NCBI RefSeq assembly: GCF_029873635.1
Contig: NC_080417.1
Coordinates: 32,724,214 to 32,788,213, forward strand
DNA from: Malania oleifera
Taxonomy: Eukaryota > Streptophyta > Magnoliopsida > Santalales > Ximeniaceae
DNA length: 64,000 nt
Direction of reading: 5' to 3'
A program made the translations under genes and the position numbers. Shown here piece after piece: positions 3,534 through 64,000 of the stretch; position 1 is the first letter of the stretch, and each line of letters starts with the position of its first letter. The notes beneath the pieces were generated by a model that worked only from the letters and a program-made list of their open reading frames with translations, was not told the DNA's origin and did no database searches.

Positions 3534-3804
3534 GACCTATTTGTATACTAGCCTTCATTGATGAGCCATGCCACTTCGTCGATGAGGTCAAGTAGGAAGT
3601 TCGTGGACGAATGCTCACTCCTCATCAACGAAATTTAGAACTATGACATATCCTCTCCGTATCTTCTCTTCGACGAGACATGTCCCCATCGACGAGCCCC
3701 TTATGTGTGCTCGTCGACGAATTCCCTGTGTTCATCGACGAGACCCTATATAATTTCCTTCCTAAATTCCTTCTTTCATTATTTAAATACCATAAGTCAC
3801 TACA
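3534..3804 (-). repeat. 3' LTR fragment of element 2 (U3 part)
   Basis: It matches the U3 end of the 5' LTR (10690-10969): the same TCGTCGACGA-type sites, the same word order and the same terminus (plus strand GTCACTACA). The rest of the LTR is displaced beyond the window by the insertion of element 1. Confidence 0.9.
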
Positions 3805-3814
3805 TTCTCCCCTC
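3805..3814 (-). other. polypurine tract of element 2
   Basis: The minus strand reads GAGGGGAGAA immediately before the 3' LTR, the expected primer for plus-strand DNA synthesis. The same sequence precedes the 3' LTRs of elements 3, 6 and 7. Confidence 0.85.
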
Positions 3815-4041
3815 TTTATAAAATTTCGTCCTCGAAATTTGCTATTCATATGATTCATCATCCCTTAAAGGCAAAACGGTCTACTTATTTTATTACTTGC
3901 CCTCACTTATGGCGGAGGAATACCGTGGTTATATTCCAAGTCCTTAGAAATTACATATATAAAATAATATTCTCCCAAAACTAGAAGACTACTTATTAAC
4001 TGAACCACTACATGTACGTGCAAAAGAAACATTACCTACTA

Positions 4042-4945: not shown

Positions 4946-4985
<40 letters not shown>

Positions 4986-7021: not shown

Positions 7022-7589
7022 GAATCCCTGACAACCACTTAGCAGCAGTCTCCTCGCCTGAATAGCTGAAACTGAATAAGGCGGGGATGGATTGCACTTG
7101 TGATCCTACAAACCTGAATTCTACTCTTCATGGAGGTCTGAATATCACTTCTCGTGCATGGCAATCTATACTGGCAAAATTAACTACTAGCCAATCCATA
7201 CCAAATATTACATCAAACCTATGCATGTCCAGCACTATTAAATCAGCAGATAAAATTTTTTCCTGAATATCAACTGAACAACCCTGGAGCACTCTACTAA
7301 ACCTCGCTACTGACCTGGTCAGTGTAGATACTAACAGTTCAGTGTCTTGGAGCACTCTACTACACCTCGCTACTGACCTGGTCAGTGTAGATACTAACAA
7401 TTCAGTGTCTAACAACTGTGTTTCTACCCTACATAGTCTAGTGCACTCTAGAGATACAAACGAGTGTGTGACTTTTGAATCAAATAATACAATAGCTTTA
7501 AAGGAAAGCATGCTAACCATACTTGTCACCACGTCGCCGGCTGTCTCAGCATCACCTGGTGGCAAAGCAAAAACTCTAGTTGGAGCCAT
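7022..7589 (-). pseudogene. aspartic protease with internal 63-bp duplication
   Basis: Retropepsin would cut the Gag-Pol precursor. The segment opens with MAPTRVFALPPGDAE at 7589. The active-site motif reads LFDSKVTHSF where the family has DSGATHSF: the catalytic Asp is kept but Gly and Ala are replaced. The later motif FDVIFGMDWL is present. Residues DTELLVSTLTRSVARCSRVL occur twice in tandem, matching a 63-bp direct duplication at 7285-7347 and 7348-7410. The duplication keeps the frame. It lies between the active-site loop and the flap-side strands, so activity is unlikely. Confidence 0.85.
7285..7410 (-). repeat. tandem duplication, 2 x 63 bp, in protease
   Basis: The blocks starting TGGAGCACTCTACTA (7285) and TGGAGCACTCTACTA (7348) are almost identical over 63 bases. 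Elements 3, 6 and 7 have a single copy at this place, so the duplication is private to this copy. Confidence 0.92.
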
Positions 7590-10690: not shown

Positions 10691-10897
10691 GCCTATTTAT
10701 ACACTAACCTTAGTCGACGAGCCACGTCACTTCGTCGACGAGGTCAAGTAGGAAGTTCATCGACGAATGCTCACTACTTGTCGACAAAATTCAGAACTAT
10801 GGCATATCCTCTCTATACCTTCTCATTGATGAGACATGTCCCTGTTGACGAGCCCCTTATGTGTGCTCGTCGATGAATTCCATGTGTTCATCGACGA
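10691..10897 (-). promoter_or_regulatory. LTR promoter with eight phased TCGTCGACGA-type sites
   Basis: A TATA box (minus strand TATAAATAGGC) lies at 10691-10702. Palindrome starts on the plus strand are 10711, 10732, 10757, 10778, 10823, 10842, 10867 and 10888. Read in element direction the spacing is 21, 25, 19, 45, 21, 25, 21. The site nearest the TATA box is about 9 bases from it. The role as a protein-binding array is inferred. Confidence 0.75.
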
Positions 10898-13716: not shown

Positions 13717-13901
13717 TCATCGATAAACACAGGGGATTCGTCGACGAGAACACATAAGAGGCTTGTCAATGGAGACGTGCCTCATCGACGAGAAGATACC
13801 GAGAAGATGTTTCGCAGTTCTGAATTTCGTCGACGAGGAGTGAGCATTCGTTGACAAATTTCCTTCTTGACCTCATCGACAAAGACCAGTGTATAAATAG
13901 G
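13717..13901 (+). promoter_or_regulatory. LTR promoter array and TATA box (element 3, 5' LTR)
   Basis: Palindrome-like sites start at 13717, 13738, 13763, 13782, 13827, 13848 and 13873: spacing 21, 25, 19, 45, 21, 25. The TATA box is at 13892-13901. One site next to the TATA box is missing relative to the 3' LTR. Confidence 0.75.
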
Positions 13902-23239: not shown

Positions 23240-23559
23240 TGTAGAAACCCAAATAATTATTATAAATTAATAATAGAAGGAGGAGAGGAAAGAAGGAATT
23301 AAAGAAGAAAATTAAACAGGGTCTCGTCGATGAACACAGAGGATTCATTAAAGAGAACACACAAGGGACTCGTTGACGGGGAGGTGTCTCATCAACGAGA
23401 AGATACCGAGAGGTTGTTTTGCAGTTCTGAATTTCATCGACGAATTTCCTTCTTGACCTCGTTGACGAAGTGACCTAGCTTGTTGATGAAAGCCAGTGTA
23501 TAAATAAACCTAAACTTCATTTTTTGTCCAAAACTTGCGCACAATTCCTCTCTCTCCTC

Positions 23560-23623
<64 letters not shown>

Positions 23624-25377
23624 TGTTTGACCTATCTACCTTCTCTCTAAGTTTTCAGGCTGGATTCTTGTCGGTTCGACCATCCGAGGCCACCATGACA
23701 CTCCTAGGAAAGTTTTCTACAAATCTGCTGGAGTGGATTGTCGGTGGGGTTACCTTGGAATTCATCCCAAATTCAAGATAAGACTTTTTACTCAATATTT
23801 TTCTTTCCTGCAGTTATAGAAAATGTAGTACACGGAGAAATACTGAAGTTTAGTTCTGAGGGATATTGATTTCAGGGTGTTGAACGGGAAACCCTACGGG
23901 TGTAAAACCAAAATTTTATAGGAGCTTTTTAGAAGTCAGGTAAGGGAATAAACTAGAGCAGTAATTTTTCATGAAAATTATTATTAAAGTACTAGCCGAT
24001 TTATGTTCAAAAAGCATATATTATATCTGAGTATTTTTAATAAAATGTATATTTGGGAAAATATTGTTGTTACACTAGAATGTATGTTTTTAGTATAAAA
24101 TGCCAGAAAATATGAATTCAGAATAGAATGTATGGCTTTATTCAACATTATGTGGCATGAATATTATTTTACACAAATTGTAATATGTTAAGGCAATTTT
24201 GCAAATAAAGTATGTTTCAGTGATTTTTAGAAATTACACAATAATGCAGTACATTATGATTTTAGAATACATGATAAATAATATATTTATTCAGAACAAC
24301 ATGTATGAAATGTTTGGCACAAGATCATGATTGATAGCCGGTGCAAGCCGTGATTGATGGCCGGTGCAAAGCCGTGTATTTATGAATGATTTCGGTACAA
24401 GGCAATATATATGAAAGTAATCGGCACAAGACCGCATTTATTTATGTTATTACAGAAAATGCTATCAATCTATTTATGTTAAATGGTATATTATCATGTA
24501 TTATATGTTATCAGAACTCGGATGATAGTTCAGTTCGGTTTCAAGAGCACAGTACCATAGCTATACAGTTCAGATTATTACAGTTCAGACTTGTGCTAAC
24601 CGCCCCTGCAAGTAGAGGGGGTGGGAGATGGATAGTTGATGTGGCTTTTAGTGTAGAGTTGTAGATGTCCACCTGGAAGTCCAGACCAGGGTGTGGTGGG
24701 CCTATCGTATTTTACAGACATTTTTGACTCGGTAGTGGTCGGCCAGCCATTGTCGAGTCTCGCCTTCAAGCTGCACAACCCGTCATGGGGGGTAATACAT
24801 GACATCCGCTAGCTATACATCCTGGGTAAATATTAGTATTATTCGTTATATCCGACATTCCATGAACAGTATGATTTATGAGAATTATGGAATTATATGT
24901 TTACTTAGCTATGTAATGATCAATGTTTTCTAGTATGTGAAATGTATTGTATATCTACCATAGCATTAAATATCTATGTTACCACAACATAGTATTTAGT
25001 TTATTTTCCCTTACTGAGAGGTGTCTCACCCCAGTGTAAATAATTTTTAGAAAACACAAAAAGACCGGCGAATCAAGGCCGCTGATGAGTTAGTTGTGCA
25101 ACCCCGCTAGGAGGGTAAGTTTTGAACTAAGATCACGAGACTTTGTTGTGGGATCCTAGATATATTTTTGGATGTTTAAGGGATTGTATATAAACATAGT
25201 ATTATTGTGGATTGTAGTTAACTCTGGTATTATGCACTATATTGTTTGGTGAATGTAATTTATTTTACTGCTGCTTAGGTTTCCATTATGTATGACAGGT
25301 GTGTCCCTATTATCCACAGGTTTGGGTTGACCATATTATATATGATTTATTATATAGAAGTTAAGCAGGTCGTTACA
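23240..25377 (+). repeat. 3' LTR of element 3 (2138 bp)
   Basis: It runs from TGTAGAAACC to GGTCGTTACA. It is collinear with the 5' LTR, with an extra GCCGGTGCAAG repeat unit near 24335-24370 and a shorter CT tract. No gene is present. Confidence 0.93.
23324..23506 (+). promoter_or_regulatory. LTR promoter array and TATA box (element 3, 3' LTR)
   Basis: Sites start at 23324, 23345, 23370, 23389, 23434, 23459 and 23480: spacing 21, 25, 19, 45, 25, 21. The TATA box is at 23499-23506. Compared with the 5' LTR it lacks the second site of block two but keeps the site nearest the TATA box. Confidence 0.75.
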
Positions 25378-25749
25378 TGAAAGGAGAGTGTGTAAAGGTT
25401 GAGGTCAGCCCTAGTAATTTGACCTAGTTGTAACTGGTGCCGCTTTACCTGTTAAGTGAGCATTAATGGAATCCTTGGGTTTGTGAGTTGAGGTGGTGAC
25501 GTAGGCAGTATTGGCTGAACCCCGATAACATTTTTTGTGCCTGCTTTTAATTTTCACAATTTAAATTTCCGCACTTGAATATTTGTGATTTATTATTGTG
25601 AATGATTGGATTTATAATTGCATAAATAGACCCTAGGTTGCGTAATACTGCTGATTTGGATAAACTTAGGAGGAGAAATTTTTAAATACCCAATTCACCC
25701 TCCTCCCCCCCCCCCCACCCCTTCTCTTGATAATACACCAATTCCGACA
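25378..25749 (+). repeat. solo copia LTR, 3' part
   Basis: It continues the LTR cut at 13632, with GTGTAGGCAGTATTGGC-like and CCCGATAACAT words shared with 35355-35390, and the terminal AATACACCAATTCCGACA. A run of C at about 25704-25720 is local slippage. Confidence 0.88.
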
Positions 25750-26415
25750 GAAAATATATTTATCTTCTACGCAAATATACTTTAACTTAATAAATAAATG
25801 TATTTTCATAAATCTATATAAATATATTCATAGTATAATTTCTTTTCTTTCTTTCCGTGATGGTATTGACGTACTATCATGAATTAACCTCACATGATTA
25901 GGTTGTGCAGCCCGAGGGCTGGAATTAACCATGGTTAACCTACCACATTAAGTCAAACATAACATATCTATGCACGATTGCCCACCCAAACTGGTCTGCC
26001 CATCCTACTCGCCGCAACACTTCTTTGGTTGGTACACAGTGGGTATCCTATTCACCGCAACACTTCGGGGCTAATCAGCCTCTGACCCAACACTTTCTGA
26101 ATAGTGTGGTTGCATTTTTGGCTAAAAACCAACCTGATCCGCCCATCTTACTCGCCGCAACACTTCTTGGGTTAGCACACACGGGGTTACACTGTCTGAT
26201 CTGGATAGCTAGCTACGGTACCGTGTTCTGAATTTGAATCATACTAGTCAATCGGGTTCTGATAACATATAGTACTATTCATAACTAATAAATCTATGTC
26301 TTGATCACATTTTTATAATTATGTATAAAATCTGCCTTATCATATTTCTGTACTCGGCATAAAGCCGACTGAACTACTATATCATACTGATCTCAGCATA
26401 TAGTCGGCTAAATTG

Positions 26416-26455
<40 letters not shown>

Positions 26456-27534
26456 TGAAACGATTATATCATATATCTGTCTGAAACTGTTATATCATAT
26501 ATCTATCTAAAACTGTTATTTCATATATCTGTCTCAAACTGTTATATCATATATCTGTCTAAAACTATTATTTTCTAGATCCGTCTGAACATATCTTATA
26601 GTAATTCTGTATAAAATCATACTTGTTCTGTATCATCATAAAATATTTTACATGTTGATTTATACTGTAAAATAACCCTACTCATCCCACACAAATTTTG
26701 AATAGTAATTCATAATATAATAACTACGTGGGAAAATTTTCCTGATTCTCCAAAATATGCATATAATAATTCATATTTACTATTTCCATATACCTGAATA
26801 TTTAGTAAAATCATATTCATCATTTCAATAATCATATCCTTCAATTTAATCAGGTAAATTTCCTCAAAATAGCTGACATAATTTATTCCCCTTACTTGAT
26901 TCCTAAAAAAAAATCCTGCAGGGATCCTAAACCATGCTTGCGACATATGCACAAAACCCTGTATCCATAATTTCTAATTTAATCAACTCATTCCCCAGGA
27001 TAAAAATCATTTTAACATTCCCTAGGCCCACACATTCCAAATAACTGATTAAACTTTTGAAAACATCATCCTTACCCTAGTGTTGGAGTGATGTCTGGAA
27101 TCCTCAACCAACTAATACGGCCCGATTAAACTGCAGAGAACCTCACCAAGTTCCCAAAACGATGTTGCTCGTTCAATTCGAGTTGAAATCGACCCAAAAA
27201 TTGAGGAGAGAGAAAAAGAAGGTCGTAGCCCGAGAGAGAGAGAGAGAGAGAGAGAGAAAGATAGGATCTAAGTTTTACCATTAAAATGAGTTTAAGGGCT
27301 ATTTATAGGTGGTTGTACCCAGACAAAAACATCGACGATTTCCCTAAAACCGTGGACGTATTGGTTTTTAACCAAACCCCCTTTTCACCGTTTTACCCTT
27401 ACCTAGCCACAATAACTCAAAATTGTCATCGATTTTCTGAGCTCCATCGAAACCGTCGATGGTTTGGCCTGTGCCAAACTAAATTTCTTATTTTATTTAT
27501 TATTTTTATTATTACTATTTTCGAGTTCTCTACA
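25750..27534 (-). repeat. LTR of element 4, outer part (U3 and R)
   Basis: It starts after GAAAA with the interrupted LTR. In plus-strand order it has the GTTGTGCAGCCCGAGGGC block (25906), an AT microsatellite (26420-26452), a 26-bp minisatellite, a GA tract (27234-27257), a TATA box (minus strand TATAAATAG near 27300) and ACCGTCGATGG-like words (27347, 27443). It ends at 27534 (minus strand TGTAGAGAACTC). The next bases, 27535 onward, are gag of element 5. Confidence 0.83.
26451..26595. repeat. 26-bp minisatellite, five and a half copies
   Basis: Units start at 26451, 26477, 26503, 26529 and 26555, with consensus CTGTCTGAAACTGTTATATC plus ATATAT, then a partial unit at 26581. An (AT)n run of about 33 bases comes directly before. 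Confidence 0.95.
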
Positions 27535-28580
27535 ATTAGACACAGATTTGCAATCTGGTCGTTGCTAGATTCAGAGTCTGAACTGCTGGTGTTGTGAGTG
27601 TCCCAACTAACCTTTAATGCCTTCTTCTTCTTTTTGACCATTTTCTTTAGCTGAGGACAATCTGGTTTGATGTGTCCAACTTCTTTGCAGTTATAGCACA
27701 TAGGAGGATCATCCTTTTGCTTCCTTCTGCTTGACTCTCCCTTTGTTGTTTTTGAGTTCTCGAATTTTTTAGTATATTTCCTGTTCTTTTTCAGGAACTT
27801 TCCGAACGTCTTAGTTAGAAAAGCCATATTATCTTCTAATTCTGAGTAGCTTTCTTCACTAGAATTGCTGGATGATGCTTTAAGAGTTGTTACTTTCTTA
27901 GTTTTATTATGCTCACTTAGTCTTTCATTTATTGTCAACTCGTATGTGATGAGTAACTTGATTAACTCGTCTACAGTAATTGCTTTCAGGTTCCGTCCTT
28001 TTGCTATGGCTGTAGCCTTTGCCTCCCAGACTAGTGGTAATCCCCTAAGAATTTTCCTAATCCTTTCATAAGTGGGGTAAGTTTTATTAAGAGCATGCAA
28101 TGAATTCGTGATGTGAGTGAACTTGGTGTACATGGATTGGATTATTTCACTAGAAGAGATTTTAAAGGCTTCATATTCACTAGTTACCATGTATTTTCTA
28201 CTATCTTTTACATCTTTAGTCCCTTCATATGTGACTTCTAATTTATCCCATATTTCTTTAGCAGCTGTACATGCCATGACCCTATTAAATTCATTTACAT
28301 CTAAAGCACAATATAACAGATTCATTACAATAGCATTTATTTGAAGAGCTTTCATGTTCTCATCTATGTATTCATCCATAGTCTTAGGTATATTTTTTTT
28401 TCTCCACAATTTTCATAGGAATATGATTTCTGTAGAAACAACTTTTCATACTTTCCAATCAGCATTTTAAAGAAAGATTCTCATTCTTTGTTTTCAGTAT
28501 GTGTAGTTAACACCACAAAACATGGGTGGTCATGTGGATGAGTATCCCTCACCGAATGGGGTTACATAGATGTGTGTCAT
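27535..28580 (-). pseudogene. copia gag with zinc knuckle, truncated by element 4
   Basis: Translation would start at 28580 (MTHIYVTPFGEG, like the gag starts of elements 1 and 9). A nine-A run at about 28391-28399 coincides with a frame change. From 28409 the frame is open: capsid with VTYEGTKDVKDSRKY and RKILRGLPLVWEAK, a Ser-rich linker, a basic segment, and a CX2CX4HX4C knuckle, CYNCKEVGHIKPDC, at about 27659-27700. The open frame runs past 27535 into the LTR of element 4, adding about 36 unrelated residues. It is the longest intact copia gag piece here. Confidence 0.88.
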
Positions 28581-28626
28581 TGTGATCTTTTACAAAAAAA
28601 AAAATGTTTAAGTCTAGTATAACCTT

Positions 28627-28638
28627 GCTCTGATACCA
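28627..28638 (-). other. primer-binding site of element 5
   Basis: The minus strand reads TGGTATCAGAGC, a perfect initiator tRNA-Met type site, two bases inside the LTR end. Confidence 0.9.
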
Positions 28639-28640
28639 TA

Positions 28641-30422
28641 TGTTAATTTAGGTGTAATCCCAAGAAGGGGGTGAATTGGGTATTTTGAAATATAGGCCAC
28701 TCAAGTTCTAATTTTGAAAACTTACAACCATACACGTACAACCTAGATGACAAGAAATTCAATATTTCTCAACTTATCAATTTAATGTGTGACTTAATTA
28801 AGCAAACTGAATTACCCTATTACTTAACATACACAACAAATAGATGAATAAGTGTAGGCAGAAATTAAAAGAGTTAAGAGAAAGAGAAATGCAAACACCG
28901 TATTTTTATGAGGTTCAGCCTACCTCGGCCTACGTCCTTGCCTTGAGCATTATTCCACTAAACCCGCTCCTTTAACTGGGATAAAGCTTCTCGTTAAAGT
29001 TTGCTACTTACAAGAGGCGTAGCTTCCTCCTTTCCCCGGTTCACAACCCAAACAGTCAATATAATAAAATGATTACAATTCTCTGCAAACCCAAACGCGC
29101 CTCAATAAGCTAATGAGTACAATAAATTTCTAAAACACACTCAAAAAATATAATATGAAGCTTAATGAGTGTATAAGATGTTTTCAATAATGTTTTTGCA
29201 ATAATAAATATATGACCTTCATGTGAAATGAATATATGATAGGCTTGCTCCAAATATATGATTTTTGTATATTAAAATATATATGATAACCTTGCTCCAA
29301 AGATCAAAACTTTATTAAAAAAATTCTCCACAACAATATATCAAAATTATGTATTTTGGAGATTTTAGGATTTTGCTCTCAAATAATTTTTGCAATGAAA
29401 AAATACGATGAAATTTATGAGTAAATTATAAACGTGAATGCTTTCAAAGATTTGAGCTTTAGCAACAACTTTTTTCCAAATAAACTTTTCAAGTAATAGA
29501 TAGATAAAGAACAAGAGTTTTTCTTCTCAATGAAATATTAGATATAAAAATATGAGAGATGAAAAACTTTTGATAAAAAGATTGAATATGCAAAAGAAAA
29601 CTATTTTTGTATCAAACCTCAATACCCAAGGATTGCTTGCAAGATGTGTATATGAATGCCCTTTCAAAATTGATGTGAGTGCATTGGAATCTAGGCAAAA
29701 GTTTTAACAATCAATTCAAAGCTCTCAAGAAGTATGCAAAAAGTGATGACCTTGGGTTTAGAGTTTGTATTTATAAGTGTTCTCGCCATCTGGAGGATTT
29801 CTGGCCATTGGATCGTTCAAAATAAAGAATTTACGTCTATGTCCGTGCAGGAGCGTTGTTCTGCATGACGTACTTGTTGACGAGTGGATACATTCATCGA
29901 AGAGTGTCCAACACTCGTTTGTTGACCAGAACATGGGTTCGTCGCTGAGTGGACTATCTAAGATTTTTGAGCTCTCGATATTTTCTCGTTGACAAGAGCA
30001 AAGCATTCGTCGTTGAGTGGCCTTCGGTCATTCATCGACGAGACCAGGAGAATCATCAATGAGCTGCCTGTTGTTCGGCCTGATCCAACCTAGGTTAATG
30101 CATGTGAATATGTCATGAAAAACATGCATCCTAAAGTCAATCTATATGTCACTTTGAGCTTCCAACTATATCATATGAGTTATGTAACTACAAGCAATAC
30201 TAAATACCCATTACAATTGAAAACTTGAAGCTTCTTCATCCTTTTACTCTTCTTACTCCATGGAGTGTACCAGGTTGTATACGCTTAAGTTCCTTATGGC
30301 TTCCATGACATCCTTACCTTCCGTGCATACTAGGTAATGATCCTATTCACAATCTCAAAGCACATGTAAGATATCAAGTGATTTGTCACTATCAAAACAT
30401 GATTGAACTCATAGAGTCAACA
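28641..30422 (-). repeat. 5' LTR of element 5 (1782 bp)
   Basis: It runs from TGTTAATTTAGG (plus strand, 28641) to GAGTCAACA (30422), so TGTTGACTC on the minus strand. It contains the copia block TTTTTATGAGGTTCAGCCTA near 28902 and a long AT-rich part (29120-29740). The promoter part shares its palindrome array with the Tekay elements. No gene is present. Confidence 0.9.
29768..30062 (-). promoter_or_regulatory. copia LTR promoter with Tekay-like palindrome array
   Basis: TCGTCGACGA-like sites start at 29874, 29894, 29919, 29939, 29986, 30007, 30032 and 30053: spacing 20, 25, 20, 47, 21, 25, 21. A TATA box (minus strand TATAAATAC) lies at about 29768-29776, about 100 bases from the nearest site, farther than in Tekay LTRs. 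The spacing is practically that of the Tekay arrays. Confidence 0.72.
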
Positions 30423-30810
30423 AATTGAGTCATTTTTAAAAAAAATTTACTCCTTTTTCCTAAAATTAAGATCACCCCTTCCCACAAGGCAATTATTGAA
30501 AAATAAATTCCTCGTATTTATTGCATCAATATACACAAATACAGATACAGGGAAATACATTGTATAGGGGAATAAAATACAAAAGGGAATATTCCAAAAT
30601 ATCCAAATTGCATTGAATAATTTATTTCCAAAATTGAAAAAACCTGCATCAATTGGAAGATTAGGGAATTAATTGGAATAAAGCCCTAAATCTATAAATG
30701 AGGGACATACACACACAAGAAAGGAAGAAGGACGATTGCCTAAGAGAGGAGGCATGACCACACAAAGGGAGAGGCATGGCCTCCCAAGGAGAGAAAGAGA
30801 GAGGAGTGGA

Positions 30811-31290
30811 GGTGCCTGCGCAATCAACTTGATGCGGATGATTGAATGGTGATTTCTTTTCAATGAAGCTTAAATTTTAACAGGTTGTTCATAACTCATT
30901 CTTTTAAATTCTGATTGGTTGGATTATTATTAGGAGCTTTGCAACTTTAATTTCATGCCTTGGACAATAGCCTCATTGCGATAGCGGCTTTAGGATGGGA
31001 GGTGCATGCGTAATCAACTTGATGCGGATGATCGGATGGTAATTTCTTGTCTGATGGAGCTAAATTTTAACAGTAGCCTCATTGCAGCAGCGGCTTCAGG
31101 TTGGGAGGTGCATGCGCAATCAACTCAATGCGGACGATCAAATGGTGATTTCTCATCCAATGGAGATGAAATTTTGACAGATTGTTTATGACTCATTCTT
31201 ATTCATTCTTACCTGTTGAATTACTATTTAGAGATTCGCAACTTTGTTTTTGTGGCTTGGACAGCTCTTCCACTCCCTCTCCTTCTTCAA
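30811..31290 (+). repeat. degenerate tandem repeat, three copies
   Basis: GGTGCATGCGCAATCAACTT-like unit starts lie at 30811, 31001 and 31107. Copies one and three carry an extra part (CATAACTCATTCTT, then CGCAACTTT or GCAACTTT, then GCTTGGACA or CCTTGGACA). Copy two lacks about 85 bases. No coding frame is shared by the copies. Confidence 0.85.
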
Positions 31291-31309
31291 AGGTAGAATT
31301 TTGTTGGTA

Positions 31310-31750
31310 TATCTTAAGGTGTTGTGTTTTTGTAGTATGTTTGTGTATCATTATGTGTATTATCATTATGTTTATGTTTATATTATGTTTTTATTTGTTA
31401 TGTTTGTTTTGATATTATTATTATGTTTATGTTTACTGTTATGTTATCATGTTTATATTATAATTGTATTATTAGGTGGATATTATTATTATGTTTTGTG
31501 TATTATTATATTATTATTATGTGTATATTATTGTTATGCTTATATTTAGCATTTTAGTTCATATTATATGGTATTTTTAGTATTATAGTTTATATTATTA
31601 TGGGCATTGTGGCATTTTTAGTGTTTTAGCTAGTATATATGGTATTATTTATTAGAGTATTTTTAGTATTTTAGTATATATGGTATTATGGCATTTTATT
31701 ATGTTTAAATTTAGTATTACTTATTATGATATTTTTAGTATCTTAGTTCA

Positions 31751-31810
<60 letters not shown>

Positions 31811-31910
31811 GGTATTTATAGTATTTTAGTATATATTTATTATTATTATGTTTATATTTAGTATTACTCATTATGGTATTTTTAGTATTTCAGTTCATAT
31901 TATATATTTA

Positions 31911-31983
<73 letters not shown>

Positions 31984-32113
31984 GAGTATTATGGTATTTT
32001 TAGTATTTTAGTGAATATGGTATTTTTATGATGTTTATATTTAGTATTAGTTATTATAGTATTTTTAGTATTTTAGTATATATGATATTACTTATAATGA
32101 TTATTGTGGAATA

Positions 32114-32153
<40 letters not shown>

Positions 32154-32307
32154 GTTTATATTTAGTTTTACTTATTATGCTATTTTTAGTATTTTAGTAT
32201 ATATGGTATTACTTATTGTTGTATTTTTAGCATTTTAGCACATATGGTACAACTTGTTATGGTATTTTTAGTATTTTAGTATATATGGTATTACTTATTA
32301 TGGTATA

Positions 32308-32341
<34 letters not shown>

Positions 32342-32490
32342 GAGTATTGTGGTATTTTTAGTATTTTTGTTCATATCATATGTTTATTAGTATTATAAGT
32401 TTTGTGGTTTTTTATATTTTAGTTTATATTATATGTTTAATATTATGTATTGTGATATTTTAATATTTTAGTCTATTATTATGTTTATCT
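31310..32490 (+). repeat. ATT microsatellites within a larger AT-rich repeat
   Basis: Four pure ATT runs (about 31749-31811, 31911-31983, 32118-32155 and 32310-32341) are separated by copies of GGTATTTTTAGTATTTTAGT and TATATATGGTATTACTTATT. The whole forms a higher-order repeat of about 160-210 bases. Nothing coding is supported. Confidence 0.93.
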
Positions 32491-33150
32491 TTAAAATAAA
32501 ATATAAAAAAAAACATTTGAAAAGTCCCAAAAGTTTGTTTAAAAAATGTTAACGATGGCTTGAAAAACTCTACTAAGATTTTGAAAAACCCAGGAATAAA
32601 AAAAAAAAAAAAAAAAAACATTGCTGATTTTCTTTATTTTTGTGTGGGTGTCTCCCTATGATTGTAAAAAGGACAATGAGTATTTGAGACCTCACCTATA
32701 TTAGCTCTGAGGGGGGTTTTTTAACGAGATCCCCTCTTTTTGGGGTCTTATTAGATATTCCTTAATCACATTCGGTTTTTTTTTATTACATACTTTTAAT
32801 TTTGTACATTTATTCCTTTATTTGTTTTTCTATTTTAAAAGGGGTAAATTAAAAGACTATTAAAATTCAATTTTGGGATAATTATTAGTTAATTAGGTAC
32901 TGTTTGTAGAATAGTTGCATAGGGGGCTCAAATACCTTCCCCTAGTATAACCGAACTCCCGATCCCGACCCTGGTATACGCAGACCGATACTATTCTTAA
33001 TTGAGTAGTAATCAGGTGTTCTAATCGTAATATGTTAGTGGCGACTCTAAACTTCAATCTTTCCAAAAAAAAAACTCACTTATTTTTATTTCTCATCGCT
33101 TCTCCGGGGCACCCTCGCTCCCAAGACATCGTGGTAGGTTTTGTGATGTT

Positions 33151-33587
33151 CAATAAAGATATAGGTTTTATTTGGGCTAAAATTTTCTTTTAAATAGTTG
33201 TTAGTTGTATTTGCTTGTATTTTTTGTTTAATCATTTACTTTTGATATTGTTGAGTTTTAATCTAATGAGCTATGGAGAGATCAATGTAACAACATTGTA
33301 AGATTAGCTATATAAACTTTTTTGATAATAAATTAATAAACAGTTGATTTGATACATGTTTCTCTTATCCAAATCAAATTTATTTATTCTGCTTCATATT
33401 CGAGTGATGGATTGGGCACCAATGGAATTTGTGGGGGATCCATTTTAGGAAAATTAGAGACGATGAACTAAAAAAAGTGGGGCAAGGCATAGATAGCTAA
33501 TAATGCAATAGCCTGTGTTGAGCAAACAACATGATTGAGCATGCATGTCCCCTCAAGTGATGCCCAATTGAGTACTTTTAGCATATG
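33151..33587. other. unassigned AT-rich sequence
   Basis: I see no ORF, repeat, RNA gene or LTR edge in this stretch. It ends where the copia LTR begins at 33588. Confidence 0.6.
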
Positions 33588-35396
33588 TGTTGACCTTATG
33601 GTTCATATCTCGTTTTGATCATGACAAATACATTGGTATTTAATATTTGTCGAGTTTGTGTGCAGGATCAATTAGCAAAATCATATGGTGGCACATGATG
33701 ACTCAAAGGAAAAATGAAGACACAAAGTGTTTTTATTGTTGCAATTTATATTCAATTCATTGGGTTTGTAATAATTATTTATCGGTCTGTAATAATTGAT
33801 GCATGTCATGAATAGTAGGAACTACAAGCTCAAGACCATAGATGGACTTTAGGGATCACACTTCGGTTGACCGACGCTGAATTTTTAGGTCTAGGTAAAA
33901 AGACTTTTGAAAGACCCTAGGACCTTACACAGACACTTAAGAAAATCCCCACTATCAACTATGCAATCAGGGGTAACTTATGATTTAAAATATGACTTAG
34001 GTCTAAATTGTGTAAGGGGTTCGGCCGACTGAACCTTGGCGTTGAAAACGCCTCGGTCAACCAAACGTTTGACTAGTCAAATAGTTGACCTAACTTTGGG
34101 CAACAGAACTCAAATAACTTGAGTGTCCACGGTCGACCAAACTCATACCCTTACATTTTTCAACAACTCGGGTGCCTGAACTTCATGTTCAAAATACCCA
34201 CAAGTGAATGTGCAAGTTAGGCAGACCAAACTTGAGACTAGGCGACCGAACCTCAGATAGATTGCAAAATCGCTTTGGTCAGTAGACCGAACCCTTTATT
34301 AGGTACCCGAACTTCAAAAATCATTTTTTTCTCATATGTCTATTTAGGTGAACGAACCTATGGCTCGATCAACCAAAACTCTTGGGTTGGCCAAAATTTT
34401 ATCGCGGTTAATTGGGGTTGAATAGGGTTGATTTTCTTAAACTCATTTAAAACAAATTTAATAATTCCCTATGTATCCCCAATGGTTATAAAATTGGCCA
34501 AGTCTATAAATACAAGTTCATTTGGTCATATTAGGAAGTGATTAACTTTTATTAGTTGAAAAATCCTCTAAAATTTTCCAAAGCCTATTTTTCATACAAA
34601 GTCTATACTCACTCATACAATCATTCCTTTGCTAAATCAATCTTTGAGAGAGCTCCTTGAGTGACTATACATTCTTCTATCTTGCTAGAAACTCTCATTG
34701 TATTTGTTATTGTTTTATTTTCACATTGAGAATTAAGCAAAGATTTTTCCCCCGATTTTATTTAATAAATTTGTGTGGTAAAAATCTTATAGCTAGTGAG
34801 TCTTGGCATTTTTATTGCAAGACTCATTGAGCTTGTATTTTTGAGTGTGCAAAAATCTTTTTCACAAACTCATTTTTGAATATCTCTTTGTGCTTGAATA
34901 TTAAGAAAATATTTTTAGAGATATTTAGAATAATCTTGGTAGAAATCTTTAAAACCCTAAACTGTGATTGAGATTTACATCTATACATAGTTTCAAAGAT
35001 TACCTTGTTGATACACTCTTGTGTTTGATTGGATATAGTTGTTACTTTGAATGTTGATTGCACACATATAGCACTGAGCTTTTTGTTCTTACATTATTGG
35101 TGTGCATTGATTATAATGTGCTGAATTTTTGTACAAATCTGCTTGTGTTAGAAGCACTTTTCATTGTACAAAAAAGTTAATCTGATTGTATTCCAACCCA
35201 TAAGGATTGATAGGGCCTTCTCTGTCCCGTAAGGTGAGGTTGTAAAGGTTGACGTCAGCCATGGAAATTTGACTTGGTCGTAACCAATGCCGCTCTACCC
35301 GTTAAGTGAGCAATAGTGGTAATCCTCGAGCTTGCGAGCTGAGGCAGGGGTGTAGGCAGTATTGGCCTAACCCCGATAACATATCATGTGACGACC
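33588..35396 (+). repeat. 5' LTR of element 9, first part
   Basis: It starts TGTTGACCTTATGGTTCATA and is collinear with the solo LTR at 11907-13632, including CTCATTGAGCTTGTATT and the GTGAGCAATAGTGG region near 35308. It is cut at 35397 by element 6. No gene is present. Confidence 0.9.
34021..34512 (+). promoter_or_regulatory. copia LTR promoter: CGACCGAAC-type sites and TATA box
   Basis: Words like TCGGCCGACTGAAC and TAGGCGACCGAAC start near 34021, 34053, 34096, 34139, 34168, 34218, 34239, 34279, 34300, 34345 and 34365. Pairs 20-21 bases apart recur every 61-65 bases in the last part. TATAAATAC lies at 34504-34512. Confidence 0.62.
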
Positions 35397-36384
35397 TGCT
35401 TAATTTTCACTTTTTTTTATAATATAAATACCATATTACAAAACTCAGTAGATCATAATCCACCTGGACCCTTGGGTCTGAGGGATATATCATAAACACA
35501 TCACGGAAGCCTATGCAACAGGAAACATAAAATAACATACATACATACATAATCCTCCATCACAATACCATAAATACCAGAGTCACTATATCCACTGGAT
35601 TTCAATATACACATCCCAAAAACAAGATCCAGGGACATTTTTCACAAAATCCAATCGTCCCTACTAAAACTTACCCTTCAAAGAGGGCAAATCGACAGCA
35701 CTAGATCAGCAAGGCTTTCCCGCTCTCCTATCAGGGGCTCCTAAAAAGTTTATAAAATTCGAAATGAGACACCTCTCAGTAAGGGAAATAAACTAATACC
35801 AGTGCGTGGCAACATAAGTATTCCGTGTTATACATATACCATACAGAACATATTTAGTAAACTGTTATGTCAAATCTGGGAAAACATATATATCATCAAA
35901 ACATGGCAGAATATATTGCATTTTCATAAACATATATCATCTCATATAATAATAATACAAAATCATTCCTGGTAGGTTAGCTGGTTGTTGTCATATATTA
36001 CCCCCACATGACTGGGTTGTGTGGCCCGAAGGCGGGACCTGACAATGGTTGGCCGACCACTGCCAAGTCAAAAGTACAGTCTATAAGTCTGATGGGTCTA
36101 CCAAACCTGGTCTATACACTAGGGGGGCTCACACACTTCTTAAAAACCACATCAACCATCCAATCTCACACCACTCTGTATAGCGGCGTTAACATAAATA
36201 TCATGATCCTGATGACTATGGACACATAGCAACGGTACCGTGCAAGTCCTAGCCTAGACCAAGCCAACTAGATTCTAATATCATATAACATATACTGAAA
36301 CTGTGATACATGGATATTTCATATCATTATTTATCAAGCCAATCATATCATTTTGCATTTATACGTATATCATGAAAATCATCG

Positions 36385-37226: not shown

Positions 37227-37507
37227 CCTATTTATCCTGTGGGATTCGTCGATGAGCCACGTCACCTCTTTGACGACTCCTGTAGAAAGTTTGTCGACGA
37301 ACCTCAACCCTCATCAACAAATTTCAGGCTTCCAAAAATTCTCTCTTGGTATCTTCTCGTCAATGAATCCTATCCTCGTCGACGAGCTCCTTTTATACCC
37401 TCGTCGACGAGTCCCTTATGTTAGTCGATGAGGAGCTGAAAAATTTCTCGAGATTATCCCATCCAAAATGCAATGTCGTTGACGAACGCGAAGCGTTTGT
37501 CAACGAA
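37227..37507 (-). promoter_or_regulatory. LTR promoter array and TATA box (element 6, 3' LTR)
   Basis: The TATA box is at about 37227-37237 (minus strand GGATAAATAGGG). Sites start at 37246, 37267, 37291, 37311, 37357, 37376, 37401 and 37422: spacing 21, 24, 20, 46, 19, 25, 21. Two extra sites lie at 37476 and 37498, 22 apart. Confidence 0.75.
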
Positions 37508-41664: not shown

Positions 41665-42365
41665 TGACTCATTCTGAGTTGTGCTTCCAAGTGCAGAAGT
41701 GTCAAGTTGTATCAAGGATGAGTCCATGATCGTATTCCACAGGGACCACTGAGTATCAAAGTATTTATGCAAGTTTAGTGAAATCCTGTTGCTAAAAAAT
41801 GGGATTTGAAAATCTTTTTGGTCTTTTACGATTTTGAAAACAGTAAACAAAGTGAGAGAATCTTGAGTAAACTATCAAAATGAAACTAAAATTTTATCAA
41901 TTTTCCAAAAATGTAAATCTAATAATGCAACCGAAACTAAACAATTTTACCAAACACTCGGGTTACGGGTTCAACATCTGTTTGCTTCCACCGTTTACTA
42001 ATTTCCTAGGCCTTACTCCTCTTCTTGTTAATCCAATCAAGGCATTAATAAGATGAAATTTTATCACTAAATATTGACTAAATTGGCCACATCCAAACGG
42101 AAGAAAATAAAAACTCTCATTAAGCATCAACCGAATTTTATGTAAAAATTAGTTTATTAAAATCTTAGATTAAATCAAGGTTTTGATGTGCCTATCGTCA
42201 ACAACAAAACAAGAAATAAGAGCTAGCGATTTATCAACGATACCTTAAATTTTTGGATTCAACCAAATAAAAGTTTATCAATAATTTCTTAGGAGAACTA
42301 AAAAACCATGGAAAACAAATGACATTGACCCACAACGCGAGTTATCGAACTTAGCCACTCATGCT
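41665..42365 (-). repeat. 3' LTR remnant of Athila element (R/U5 side)
   Basis: TGACTCATTCTGAGTTGTGC onward matches 49299-50000 of the 5' LTR with few changes. Similarity stops abruptly after CACTCATGCT at about 42365. The U3 side, about 1.39 kb, is absent. Confidence 0.9.
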
Positions 42366-43720
42366 ATATGAGGAGGAGTGTTGCGATCAAACATCCCACA
42401 TAATAAAAGGAACAACGGTAAATGTACAGAGTGGACTAGTCTGGAAAGGATCTAGCCTATCTATGAGGTGTCGGGTCCTTCACCCTAGCATCTTCACACC
42501 TACTCGCCACATCCAACTGAGACCACCCTAGATCAACTTATTCACAAACTTGTTGTGAACACATCTGAGGCATTAACTGGTTGAAGAATCTTCGTACGTA
42601 GAGAACATGTGTTGTGTCCTTGACTTTTTGTGATATTTCTGTGGAGCAGACATTAGCATTTCATTTCACTCGCATTTTTATTTCTTATCGTTTCTTCTGC
42701 TCATTCTTTATTTTTCTGCCTTTTCTTGAACAATTAAGACAATCATTACACTTCGTTTGTTATCTTCATACCATCAACGGGAATTGAGTTCGAATAGTGG
42801 TCCATGAACTAAGTCTGTCTCTAGGGGTGGCTCAGCCTTCACATCTTGAGTAGGCTACAAGACCTAGGTTTCTATCTCCCCACTAGAAGTCACCTCTAGG
42901 TTAGCAAATCAAAAACAAAGACTAGTGTACAAGGAATCATCCAGAAAAAAGAGAATTGAGTTCTATGAACTCTGATTTGATATTAACGCTCAAAAGGACG
43001 ATACATAGCTCAAGGATATCTCACAAGGTGTCATAGTCGCCACGGGTGTTCTCTCAATGCTCACAGGAAACCCTAAGTGCAATGAATCACGTGAGTTTGT
43101 ATTCAACCTCGTGAGATGTTATGTAAATACAGAAAATTATATAACCAAATTAACACGAATGTACTACCAATCAATTATTCATGGAGTCATAAAATCATAT
43201 AAAGAGAAACTACGCATAAATGAGTCAAGTGTGTAGTTCTTAGGTTATATGCAGGTATGTGAAGGGTACGAGTCAATGTTAAAAATGGGATAATGCAGTG
43301 TAAATCTTCAGTGCTCCTCTTTCTTTCTCTCTTTCTTTTTGATTTTTGATTTTTTTTTTGTTTTTGTTTTTTTTGTTTTAATATAACACTATTTTCCCAA
43401 GGCAAACCACATATGTTTAAAGCACGCAAACCACAAGGTAAATTCTCTTCCACCCCCCAACTAGAATGTAGCATTGTCCCCAATGATGCAGGAGAATTGA
43501 AAGAATTTACCCGAGAGAGTATTTAAACGTAAAGCAAAACAACTCTAAAAATATAAATGAGAAAAAGAAGAAGTACCTGAACCGCTTTGAAAAGAATATA
43601 ATGTTAGAGAATAAGAAATAAAAACTACAGAACAAAGGAAAACGATGAGAAAAATAAAAATATAAATGAGAAAAAAAAAAACACAAAAAGGGAAAAGAAA
43701 AGAAAAGAAAATGAACTATA
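42366..43720 (-). other. noncoding 3' internal region of Athila element
   Basis: Between pol and the LTR remnant I see no ORF with recognisable domains. There are T-rich and A-rich runs (43340-43380, 43560-43710) and a polypurine-like stretch on the minus strand (GTTGGGGGGTGGAAGAG, about 43446-43462). Athila elements often carry an env-like gene here. None is supported. Confidence 0.7.
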
Positions 43721-49298: not shown

Positions 49299-50986
49299 TG
49301 ACTCGTTCTGAATTGTGCTTCCAAGTGCAGAGTGTCAAGTTGTATCAAGGATGAGTCCAGAATCGTATTTCACAGGGACCACTGAGTATCAAAGTATTTA
49401 TGCAAGTTTAGTGAAATCTTGTTGCTGAAAAATGGGATTTAAAAATCTTTTTGGTCTTTTACGATTTTAAAAATAGTAAACAAAGTGAGAGAAGCTTGAG
49501 TAAACTATCAAAATGAAACTGAAATTTTATCAATTTTCCAAAAATGTAAATCTAATAACGCAACCGAAACTAAACAATTTTACCAAACACTCGGGTTACG
49601 GGTTCAACATCTGTTTGCTTCCATTGTTTACTAATTTCCTAGGCCTTACTCCTCTTCTTGTTAATCCAATCAAGGCATTAATAAGATGAAATTTTATCAC
49701 TAAAGATCAAGTAAATTGGCCACATCCAAACGGAAGAAAATAAAAACTCTCATTAAGCATCAACCGAATTTTATGTAAAAATTAGTTGATTAAAATCCTA
49801 AATTAAATCAAGGTTTTGATGTGCCTATCGTCAACAATAAAACAAGAAATAAGAGCTAGCGATTTATCAACGATACCTTAAATTTTCGGGTTCAACCAAA
49901 TAAAAGTTTATCAATAATTTCTTAGGAGAACTAATAAACCATGGAAAACAAACGACATTGACCCACAACCCGAGTTACCGAACTTGGCCACTCATGCTAA
50001 CAATACACACTTTTTGGGTTAAATTAATTCCATGGTGGCTCATTGCATCAATAAAACGAAAGACATCAAAATAAAACAAACCTAACACTTAAAGATACCG
50101 AAACATGAGAAAAAAATGAACTTTAATTGAACCAATCCTAATCTAAATTGAATTTCAAAAGAAAGAAAAAAAATTAAAACTTGGAAAACTTCAAAACTAA
50201 ACAATATTTTTTTTCTGTCTTTTTTTTTTTTTTTTTTCAAACCGAACTTAATTTAAAGGACTAATTAAAACCACCAATAACTAGTTTAATGGAAAAAAAA
50301 ATTCAACAAGAGTTAAATGCTTAACAATATTCAATCTTAAAAGAAATTTCAAATAAACTAAAAAAAAATTTGAACTTTATGCAATATTTAAAGTCTTAAC
50401 AAAAATAAATAAATAATTAAAAGAAAGAAGGGAAAAGAGAGAACAGGGAAGGACGGCCATGGCAGGCCGTGAGAAACAGAGGAGAGGGCTGTTGTTGCTG
50501 CTGTGCTCTGCTGGTTGAGAGGGCTGTTGATGCTGGGCTGGCCTAGGATCAGAGAGGAGCAGCTCTCAAGTTGCTGTTGCTGCTGTGCTCTGCTGGCTGT
50601 GCAAAGGGCTGCCTGAATTCTGCTGTGGTGTGCTTGGTGGTCTGTCCAGAACAGCTGCAACGGAGGAACTTAGCTGGCAGGATGGTGGAGTGGAGTTGCT
50701 GTGGTCGGCTATGGTTCACAGTGGCTGCAGGTGGTGTCTCACGGGAGAGAAGACATAGGGAGAGGGAGAGGTTTTAGGGAAGCTGAGAGAGTAAAAGAGA
50801 ACGAGAAGGGGAAAAACAGAGAGACGACAAAAATTGAAGGAGCAAAGGAGAAGAGGGAGCATAGATCGGTGTGCTGGAGACACCCTCAAAAAAAAAAAAG
50901 GGAAGAGGAGAATTTAAAGGGGAAAAAGAATACCTAGACCCGGCTAACCCAACCCGACCCGGCCATGCATGGTCGGGTCACATAAA

Positions 50987-54226: not shown

Positions 54227-54431
54227 CCTATTTATCCTGCGAGATTCGTCAACAAACCACGTCACCTCGTCGATGAGTCCTGTAGAAAGTTCATCGACGA
54301 ACCTCAAACCTAGTCGACGAATGTCAGGCTTCCAAAAATTCTCTCTTGGTATCTTCTTGTCGACGAAACTTGTCCTCGTCGACGAGCTCCTATTATACCC
54401 TCATCGATGAGTCCCCTATGTTCGTCAACGA
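54227..54431 (-). promoter_or_regulatory. LTR promoter array and TATA box (element 6, 5' LTR)
   Basis: Sites start at 54246, 54267, 54291, 54311, 54357, 54376, 54401 and 54422: spacing 21, 24, 20, 46, 19, 25, 21, the same as in the 3' LTR. The TATA-like GGATAAATAGGG (minus strand) lies at about 54227-54238. Confidence 0.75.
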
Positions 54432-54566
54432 GGAGCAGAAAAATTCCTCGGGATTATCCCATCGAAAATGCGCGTTCGTCAATGAAGTCGACTGCCTCCT
54501 TCTGTTCCTGTTTCCATTTCTCTTTCTTCTTATTATTTAAATATCATTATTCTTCGGGTCATTACA

Positions 54567-54883: not shown

Positions 54884-55289
54884 TGTAGTAACCCGGATAA
54901 TTATGGGAATTAAATAATAAAGAAATAAGAGGAAAAGGAAATTTTTAAAGGGGACGCAGCGTTCATCGACAAGCAGTCTTCTTGGGCTCATCAACGTGGA
55001 CACGTCTCTCATCAATGACAACTTATTGAGAGGGGTGATTTTAGGGCCTGAAACTCATCGACGAGGGTTAGGTGTTCGTCGACGAACTCCCTTCTTGGAC
55101 TCATCGACGAGGTGTCATGGCTCATCGACGAGGCCACGTGGCAAGAGGTATATAAATAGCTGAAAACAACATTTTAGCGAGAAATTTTATTTTCTCTCAG
55201 TTTTTCTCTCTCTCCTGCTTGGTTTCTTTCCTCTTCTCTCTATATTTCTCACCCTGTTACTCCCCAGTTCGATGATCAGAAGTTGCCAC
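54884..55289 (+). mobile_element. Tekay-type LTR fragment (element 10), U3 and TATA part
   Basis: It starts TGTAGTAACCCGGATAATTA. It carries the palindrome array (sites at 54963, 54988, 55009, 55055, 55076, 55101 and 55122: spacing 25, 21, 46, 21, 25, 21), TATATAAATAG at about 55149 and a pyrimidine-rich leader. It is cut at 55290 by element 7. The rest must lie beyond the window. Confidence 0.85.
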
Positions 55290-62160: not shown

Positions 62161-64000
62161 TGTAGTGACCCGAATAATAATAGTATTTTAATAATAATGA
62201 GGGAGAGAAAATTGAAACAAAAATAGAAGGAGGCCGTAGACATCGCACTTTGGAGATAATAATAAATAAAAAAAATTTCAGGAAATTGCCAGACTTCGTC
62301 AATGAATACAGGGTTTCGTCGACGAAGGTCTTCAAGATCTCGTCGACGAGTTCCCATTTCGTCGATGAGAAAATACCGAGAGACGGGTTTAGGCTACTCT
62401 GAATTTCATCGACGAACACAGGGGTTCATCGACGAATTTACTAAAGGACTCGTCGACGAGGTGACGTGTCTCGTCGACGAATCTGGCCCTATAAATAGGG
62501 AAAACTCATATTATTATCATAATTTTAGTGCTCTCTCTCTCTCTCTCCTGCGGACACTCTCCCTTCTCTCTTCGATTTCGGCCCCTCCAGTCACCGGATC
62601 GATGATCCGAAGCCACCACAATGCTCCTGACGAAGTTCTCTGCAAGTCTGCCAGAGTGGATCGTTGGTAAAACGAAGTTAGATTTCATCCCAAATTCAGG
62701 GTAAGGCCTTTTAGTCCATTTTTTGCCTATGACAGTCATAGGAAATGATATAGGCGAAGAAATACTAATATTCTATTCTGAAAAATGTTGTTTTCAGGGT
62801 GTTGTGTAAGAGGCCATGCGAGTATTAGGCCAGTATACCATAGGGGCTTTTTAATAGTCAAGTAAGGGAAATATACTATGCTAGGTAATTTTAAGATATT
62901 ATACAGTTTATTTAAATTATGAATATTATGTATTAAAGTATGGTGTGTCTTGAGAATATGAATATAGTATGGAACATATTTTACGAATTTCACTACCATG
63001 ATTTTACGAATTTCAGTATCATGATTTTACGAATTTTAGTACCATGATTATACGAATCTCAGTACCATGATTATACGAATTCCAGTACTATGATTATGCA
63101 GTTATCAGTATTACGATTATACAGTTCTCAATATTATAACGTATGAATTACAGTTACAGTTTATTCAGTATCATGGTTATTACAGTTATTTCAAAATCAT
63201 GGTAAATTAGATAGTGGTATATAGAGATATATTATATGGTATTAGACCCTATTGGACTATGCAGTTACAGAGCACGGTACCGTTGCTACAGATATTTTGT
63301 TATGTTACAAGTGCAACCACCTATTAAGATAATACGTGGTAATAGGTCGATCACCTAGGCCCTTGACGTGGACAGACTCCCCATCAGATATGGGTTAAGG
63401 TGGGCAGATCAAATCGATGGAGTATAGTGATTTATTCCTGGTTGGCTAGTCAGGGTAAATCCCGCCTACAGGCCGCACAACCCTGTCATGAGGGGTTAAA
63501 TCATGACACACAGTTATCCACAAGGAAAGTTTTCAGTTACTATTACGTATATACAGATTTACAGAAACTAGGAACATACTTATGTATGATAGAAGTATTT
63601 TGAATAGTAATCTACAATACTGTTATGTTAAGCGACATGGAAAGAGGGTGAATTTTATTACTTGTACTGTATTTACATATTTAGTTATACATGATTATTT
63701 AGAAACGGATTTTCATAATATTGTAACTCATTTGCCACACACTAGTAATAGCATATTTCGTCTGACTGAGCGTTGGCTCATCCCAGTGTTGAATCATTTT
63801 TCAAGTGATCCAGGTAGGCAAGCAAACCAGGCTCGCAGATAGAAGGGCTTTAGTACTGCCCTGTTAGCAGATAGTGAGTATGTTGTGGAGGATTTTTGTA
63901 TATCCCAGTATAGTTGGGGATATTTTGGAGAATAGTGATATGTGTATATTTTGGAAAACATGATAGCACTCTGGTATTATCTTGTATATAATTATGTATG
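62161..64000 (+). repeat. 3' LTR of element 7, cut by window end
   Basis: It starts TGTAGTGACCCGAATAATAA. It contains the array, TATA box, CT tract, the 105-base segment missing from the 5' LTR, a minisatellite (about 62990-63150) and the GCCGCACAACCCTGTCATGA block near 63471. Confidence 0.92.
62296..62499 (+). promoter_or_regulatory. LTR promoter array and TATA box (element 7, 3' LTR)
   Basis: Sites start at 62296, 62316, 62340, 62359, 62406, 62426, 62450 and 62471: spacing 20, 24, 19, 47, 20, 24, 21. Four are perfect TCGTCGACGA. The second block repeats the first at an offset of 110-112 bases. TATAAATAGG lies at 62490-62499. Confidence 0.78.

Follow-up and report, generated by a model that had tools for sequence, protein, structure and literature searches.

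The window, the whole 64-kb stretch of Malania oleifera DNA analysed here, carries a minus-strand Ty1/copia remnant, element 5. Table 1 lists the parts of this element together with the palindrome arrays of nine gypsy LTRs. The sequence-only reading that preceded this analysis had taken the LTR outside its array to be copia-like, and the terminal motifs, the perfect initiator-Met primer-binding site and the copia gag behind it agree with that description. This gag is the sole minus-strand ORF of at least 90 aa within 25300-36000. Copies of the LTR occur elsewhere in the M. oleifera genome and can be aligned up to full length.

Element 5 was compared with the Sirevirus traits given in the accessible parts of Bousios et al. 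(2010; PMC2829016). It encodes a copia gag (PF14223 with a CCHC knuckle), bears a palindromic array upstream of the TATA box, and has the primer-binding-site core TATCAGAGC. Its C-rich 19-mer fits the description of the Sirevirus integrase signal, a C-rich stretch about 21 bp from the LTR 3' end. The 5 nt that intervene between the CA end of the LTR and the primer-binding-site core are TATGG versus the typical Sirevirus ATTGG, equal in length and in three of five letters. The RM boxes of Sireviruses have a CGG-CCG core, to which Tnd-1 is the reported exception, and the core here is CGTCGACG; we therefore call the element Sirevirus-like rather than a Sirevirus. An ACGTCA follows the last array site at 29871-29866.

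Table 1. Features of the window, with the palindrome sites of element 5 numbered in LTR sense.
Feature	Position	Strand	Remark
LTR of Ty1/copia (Sirevirus-like) element 5, 1782 bp	28641..30422	-	ends TGTTGAC...AACA beside primer-binding site
Primer-binding site TGGTATCAGAGC, initiator Met tRNA	28627..28638	-	0 mismatches
Copia gag ORF (stop to stop)	27426..28412	-	PF14223 Retrotran_gag_2 E 9.5e-22; PF00098 zf-CCHC E 4.4e-6
C-rich signal AATTCACCCCCTTCTTGGG, 19-mer, 18 bp off LTR 3' end	28659..28677	-	by eye
TATA box TATAAATA, 98 bp past last palindrome site	29768..29775	-	TATAWA scan
CCAAT box, between array and TATA	29807..29811	-	by eye
Palindrome site 1	30053..30062	.	site scan
Palindrome site 2	30032..30041	.	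site scan
Palindrome site 3	30007..30016	.	site scan
Palindrome site 4	29986..29995	.	site scan
14-mer GAAAATATCGAGAG immediately after site 4, common to gypsy arrays	29972..29985	-	
Palindrome site 5	29939..29948	.	site scan
Palindrome site 6	29919..29928	.	site scan
Palindrome site 7	29894..29903	.	site scan
Palindrome site 8	29874..29883	.	site scan
Gypsy array, type C (T3555)	3555..3741	-	14-mer 3653-3666
Gypsy array, type C (T10711)	10711..10897	-	14-mer 10809-10822
Gypsy array without eighth site (T13717)	13717..13882	+	14-mer 13792-13805
Gypsy array without one second-block site (T23324)	23324..23489	+	14-mer 23399-23412
Gypsy array (T37246)	37246..37431	-	14-mer 37343-37356
Gypsy array (T54246)	54246..54431	-	14-mer 54343-54356
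Array of a further LTR (U54963), taken as Tekay-like from its start TGTAGTAACCCG at 54884, by eye	54942..55131	+	14-mer with 4 mismatches
Decayed gypsy array (T55489), apparently other LTR of the element of T62296	55425..55610	+	14-mer 55499-55512
Best-preserved gypsy array, type A (T62296)	62296..62480	+	14-mer 62369-62382; TATA from 62490

The element 5 array consists of eight palindromes of the TCGTCGACGA type across 29874-30062, each with one to three mismatches and set at steps of 20, 25, 20, 47, 21, 25 and 21 in ascending coordinates. Arrays were scored by a dynamic-programming fit of eight palindrome sites with these steps. The LTR reaches a best fit of 64.2, and none of 1000 base-shuffled LTRs came as high (mean 22.1, sd 2.5, maximum 33.4), which upholds the sites and steps first read from the sequence. 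Of the 17 mismatches at the sites of element 5, 13 are CpG transitions, as are 90 of the 104 departures from TCGTCGACGA across the ten arrays of the window; the ancestral sites were therefore nearer a perfect palindrome, and such transitions are the mark of methylated, decaying copies. The CpG observed/expected ratio is 1.19 in the array versus 0.27 and 0.56 in the remaining LTR. Throughout the M. oleifera genome (1.494 Gb) there are 20294 pairs of exact palindromes 5-20 bases apart and none in the reversed control, and a search of viral contigs with the palindrome array gave no match.

Searching the genome with the LTR pieces on either side of the array returned 60 partly overlapping loci, a sample of best hits that yields 45 distinct array positions once identical arrays are merged. 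Among the 30 loci from one of the searches, five hits (L026, L027, L030, L031 and L034) begin downstream of the array position and are uninformative on it. Scores of at least 40 were found at 43 of the 45 positions (L015 and L016 fell below and were left out), against a mean of 14.4 and a maximum of 21.2 in 60 shuffled stretches. The commonest steps in LTR sense are 21 (32 of 43), 25 (36), 21 (36), 47 (37), 20 (33), 25 (40) and 20 (34), and 26 of the 43 copies have a TATAWA 90-110 bp from the array. The array is thus a family-level feature of this copia LTR, and the module that the sequence-only reading proposed to look for in other copia copies is there. Nearby LTR copies on one contig, seven pairs that are perhaps the two ends of one element, are 87-91% identical; the sampled copia family is therefore not young.

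Ten stretches of the window score at least 35, namely the element 5 array and nine arrays in gypsy LTRs (chromovirus, Tekay/Del-like). As had been claimed for Tekay, these nine share the layout of element 5, with two of them, T13717 and T23324, one site short; their 8-site fits extend to 13900 and 23507, respectively, only through a false last site. The TATA box of element 5 lies 98 bp from the array, and the distance in gypsy is 9-17 bp where measurable: 9 bp in T10711, T55489 and T62296, 17 bp in U54963, and 9 bp by eye in T13717 and T23324, where the scan missed a TATA overlapped by the last fitted site. A strict TATAWA was not found within 160 bp of T3555, T37246 or T54246. The roughly tenfold difference described earlier therefore holds where it can be measured, and the differing TATA distance and spacers support the view that the whole promoter was not transferred.

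The gypsy assignment was examined in the element at 55291-64000, the one tested, which has the Ty3-type order protease-RT-RNase H-integrase: RVP_2, RVT_1 and RT_RNaseH are followed by a weak rve (E 0.0028, below cutoff). SH3_Tf2-1 is clear (E 3.7e-24), and Chromo (E 0.0024, 18.2 bits) falls under its Pfam cutoff of 25.1. The internal region of this element is 71% identical to the stretch at 3768-7271, beside array T3555. Del is the same lineage as Tekay. The name Tekay/Del for these elements follows the sequence-only reading and the Malania genome paper (PMC6377399).

Gypsy copies were also drawn from the genome, 20 of the 39 best hits listed for each of subfamilies A and C (those of the window excluded), picked mostly by matches starting at or near query base 1 and not at random. 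Scores of at least 40 were reached by 39 of these 40 copies (type A 20/20, type C 19/20); the one left out, L086 of type C, scored 4.2, and as its hit begins at query base 39 the stretch may miss the array. The commonest steps are 20, 24, 19, 47, 20, 24 and 21 in type A and 21, 25, 19, 45, 21, 25 and 21 in type C. As sampled, the gypsy modules are more diverse than the copia module.

Several further features of the gypsy LTRs deserve record. In the apparent LTR pair 55291-57190 and 62160-64000 of one element, the U3/array part is 83-93% identical and the rest 93-99%; the first four 150-column blocks hold 35 CpG transitions and the remainder 5. Spacer 7 of many gypsy arrays (e.g., 62460-62470) reads GGTGACGTGTC or AGTGACGTGGC, a bZIP-like sequence with an ACGT core beside the TATA box. 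Some gypsy LTRs have one or two extra palindromes (37476-37506 and 54476-54485), the first 54 bp upstream of site 1 in minus-strand sense. Direct repeats at 41665-42366 and 49299-49999, 95.6% identical and flanking gypsy gag and pol ORFs, form another LTR pair, in which the site scan found no palindrome array and only two weak sites each.

Beyond sites and steps, the two superfamilies have one stretch of letters in common. In both, the middle spacer starts with the 14-mer GAARATAYCGAGAG, immediately after site 4 and in equal orientation to the TATA box, a feature that the sequence-only reading had not recorded. With at most three mismatches it follows site 4 in 39 of 43 copia arrays, 19 of 20 gypsy A, 18 of 19 gypsy C and 8 of 9 window gypsy arrays, the ninth, U54963, having it at four mismatches; against the reversed middle spacer, median mismatches are 9-12. 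All nine occurrences at two mismatches or fewer in the 64-kb window fall in array middle spacers, where shuffles lead one to expect 1.3 in total. Genome-wide, with copia and gypsy pooled, the exact word GAARATACCGAGAG occurs 10197 times (reversed control 13), and in 8915 of these it directly follows a palindrome or its CpG-decayed form (reversed control 0).

Identities of the 14-mer and spacers were taken from a fixed-register comparison, which replaced whole-spacer alignment because the latter dilutes the 14-mer. Over the 14-mer, identity between copia and gypsy is 0.71-0.76, next to 0.75 within copia and 0.80-0.81 within gypsy A and C. Over the six other spacers it is 0.23-0.26 between copia and gypsy, which is near random, and the spacers stay recognisable between gypsy A and C (0.45) and within copia (0.64); the corresponding values for the remainder of the middle spacer are 0.12-0.19 (at or below random), 0.31 and 0.69. 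Sites, spacing and one oriented 14-mer are therefore common to the superfamilies, and the filling of the spacers differs.

The gapped and end-anchored comparisons gave little more. Global free-end alignment of one copia array with five gypsy arrays was not significant over all spacers (p 0.07-0.20) or without the middle one (p 0.16-0.78), was weak for the middle spacer (p 0.04-0.14), and gave scores of 18, 21, 15, 13 and 18 with the copia spacers reversed versus 16, 15, 14, 13 and 17 forward. End-anchored identity of the six non-middle spacers at the same index was 0.25-0.40 versus 0.21-0.36 shuffled; against gypsy A, spacers 1 and 2 were slightly above their shuffled values (0.37 and 0.40 versus 0.27 and 0.30), a difference that is not claimed. 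An all-against-all gapped test (196 comparisons; 8 copia arrays and 6 gypsy arrays of each type) ranked the pairing of the two middle spacers, number 4 in each array, first for gypsy A (z 4.7); for gypsy C this pairing was weak (z 2.0). High values were otherwise scattered over index and orientation, and we make no claim for the pair of copia spacer 5 and gypsy C spacer 2 in reverse (z 4.0) or for that of copia spacer 2 and gypsy A spacer 6 (z 3.4). In one or more copia arrays, spacer 2 or 6 instead opens with a word one mismatch away from the 14-mer, probably a misplaced fit. Within arrays, the resemblance between the two blocks lies at spacers 1-5 and 2-6 in copia and mainly at 3-7 in gypsy A and C. 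The earlier expectation had been that transfer would align the spacers as well and convergence the sites alone. Part of such an alignment emerged: the middle spacers agree over their first 14 nt, with offset and orientation matched, and six of the seven spacers show no consistent similarity.

A third, Sirevirus-like LTR family (L018:3225-3490 and L106-L121, 17 copies) has the same palindromes, mostly in 21, 21, 21 tetrads separated by gaps of about 49 bp, and lacks the 14-mer, the best match having 4-6 mismatches in all 17 copies. Of 544 first-look candidates for this family in the genome, 40 were scored. Its arrays with steps 49, 21, 21, 21 and 49 score 40.0-56.8 on the 8-site fit, for which a threshold of 40 is thus not specific for the spacing described here; the claim of matching steps therefore rests on step counts and not on score. 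The fit also fills in absent sites, as in the two window arrays one site short, and five of the 19 gypsy C arrays have a last step of 18 that may arise in this way. As the third family has neither the 14-mer nor the 25-bp step, neither is obligatory for such arrays, and the tetrads and long gap may be what the host machinery demands. By eye, the U5 and the C-rich signal of the LTR adjoining L018 are Sirevirus-like; neither a primer-binding site nor a gag was seen behind this LTR, which is therefore probably a solo LTR. A second copia LTR-like stretch of the window (3515-1475, minus strand) has palindromic boxes unrelated to these, namely CCTCAGGCTACTGAGG and half boxes of the CTTCAG type at 3010, 2988, 2969 and 2948, again about 21 bp apart; neighbouring copia families therefore use different palindromes.

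Among known systems, the copia elements Tnt1 and Tto1 carry tandem enhancer boxes in U3, repeated factor-binding boxes that drive transcription. To our knowledge, these are family-specific and not an ordered module shared across superfamilies. The RM boxes of Sireviruses are described, in the accessible parts of PMC2829016, as dyad-symmetric motifs in high copy, at least eight per element, within a CpG-rich stretch of the upstream LTR half shortly before the TATA box, and are called Sirevirus-specific within the Ty1/copia dataset. The Vitis box CGGTCGACCG has the GTCGAC core in common with the palindromes here; unlike RM boxes as reported there, the present arrays hold an oriented 14-mer in order and recur as the same module in Ty3/gypsy LTRs. 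Palindromes of maize Sireviruses (a 2016 study, as relayed in the accessible text of PMC10760457 and PMC5311732) likewise cluster in the LTR regulatory region, but they are a different palindrome, were studied as small-RNA hotspots, and are reported as shared with Helitrons, in contrast to the sharing with gypsy LTRs seen here. For Del LTRs, the available portion of Cruz et al. (2014, PMC4029996) reports, comparably to the present arrays, a CpG-rich variable stretch in the 5' part that the authors link to the promoter; that portion places the CpG islands in grasses and not in the five eudicots studied, and the word stem "palindrom" is absent from the paper's text. In Malania, according to the accessible parts of the genome paper (PMC6377399), the most prevalent clade is Del among gypsy elements (6.99%) and Sire among copia elements (3.77%). 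In a collection of 5.39 million papers, the 10-mer palindrome occurred in 33, never together with "retrotransposon" and, among the matches listed, under no retrotransposon title; none of the papers listed in this and related searches describes a palindrome module shared by copia and gypsy, in a coverage that leaves most subscription journals outside. Palindrome arrays in Sireviruses are thus known, and the ordered module shared with gypsy is new.

We consider it somewhat more probable than an even chance that one ordered enhancer cassette moved between Ty1/copia and Ty3/gypsy elements, with families of both thereby answering to one host regulatory input in this plant genome. The host machinery does not require the 25-bp central step or the 14-mer, yet copia element 5 and the gypsy families have both, which favours one origin. 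On the choice between transfer and convergence that the sequence-only reading had left standing, the matched steps and the 14-mer thus favour a common origin of the module while falling short of proof. Under this reading, the array would be an upstream enhancer of the LTR promoter, made of two tetrads of 10-bp dyad-symmetric sites spaced approximately 21-25-21 bp, with about 47 bp between the tetrads and an oriented 14-bp putative second-factor site directly after site 4. Host dimeric DNA-binding proteins would read the palindromes as double-stranded DNA; the position of the array, the dyad symmetry of every site and the fixed steps fit such proteins on a putative enhancer, and the asymmetric 14-mer fits a second factor. 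The cassette would have crossed between a Sirevirus-like copia family and several Tekay/Del-like gypsy subfamilies on one or a few occasions; the simplest routes would be a template switch between RNAs packaged together or recombination of nested LTR copies with each other. It would have landed upstream of the recipient's core promoter, each LTR keeping its own. Afterwards, sites, spacing and 14-mer would have been kept as active copies needed them, with the spacers free to change.

The first alternative to weigh is convergence, in which the superfamilies evolved separately towards one host complex dictating TCGTCGACGA tetrads, a gap of some 47 bp and an adjacent second site. We hold this to be unlikely, though not far-fetched. 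Non-central spacers near random between copia and gypsy speak for it, and as six of the seven spacers do not align between the superfamilies, common descent rests on 14 bases and the spacing. The third LTR family has a similar plan with different steps; as it, too, has tetrads, set off by a gap of some 49 bp, this plan may be host-imposed. Sirevirus families of several plants likewise have palindrome arrays of their own at this place, according to the accessible parts of PMC2829016. The differing block resemblance within arrays could mean separate histories of block duplication, which counts against transfer. Against convergence, the same 14-mer at the same offset and orientation, along with the 25-bp central step, would be hard to reach twice, and both are absent in the third family. 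A further, improbable reading would have both superfamilies take the cassette separately from a third source, such as a host promoter, satellite or other transposon. Other contexts may exist among the 20294 palindrome pairs and among the roughly 13% of exact 14-mers (1282/10197) with no recognisable adjoining palindrome, and the available text of PMC10760457 names a maize palindrome as top motif of both Copia and Helitron structured regions. The arrays that were read with their surroundings, in the window and at the copia loci (L001-L004 with 60-base flanks only), nevertheless all lie in LTRs and no other source was seen, in a survey that was not random.

A role in RNA or single-stranded form, in which palindromes of the U3 transcript would form hairpins and so draw small RNAs and silencing, a role proposed for maize Sireviruses, has in our estimate very little probability. 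Both array types fold more stably than dinucleotide shuffles, copia with a mean z of -2.3 (30 of 43 arrays folded, 15 of them below -2) and gypsy with -3.5 (30 of 39 folded, 26 below -2), and Sirevirus palindromes have been linked to small RNAs (PMC10760457 and PMC5311732, accessible parts). Hairpins, however, need complementary partners and not sites that are individually self-palindromic, any set of palindromes folds in this way, and structure alone requires neither an oriented 14-mer nor fixed steps; stable folding may thus be a by-product rather than a role. The window is crowded by gypsy LTRs, which would suit a chance insertion of a gypsy LTR fragment into this single copia LTR, the condition under which the sequence-only reading would have failed. 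The same array place in 43 of the 45 copia positions, copia LTR on both flanks and copia-specific spacers leave this with next to no probability, and insertion in one copy is refuted.

If the cassette was indeed exchanged between Ty1/copia and Ty3/gypsy elements, LTR promoters would be modular across superfamilies and LTR regulatory regions would evolve by module exchange; a host could then gain or lose control of very different elements via one factor. Two unrelated LTRs that agree in certain letters only point to the bases that matter, namely eight sites, their spacing and one 14-mer, and these agreeing letters make a binding factor directly searchable.
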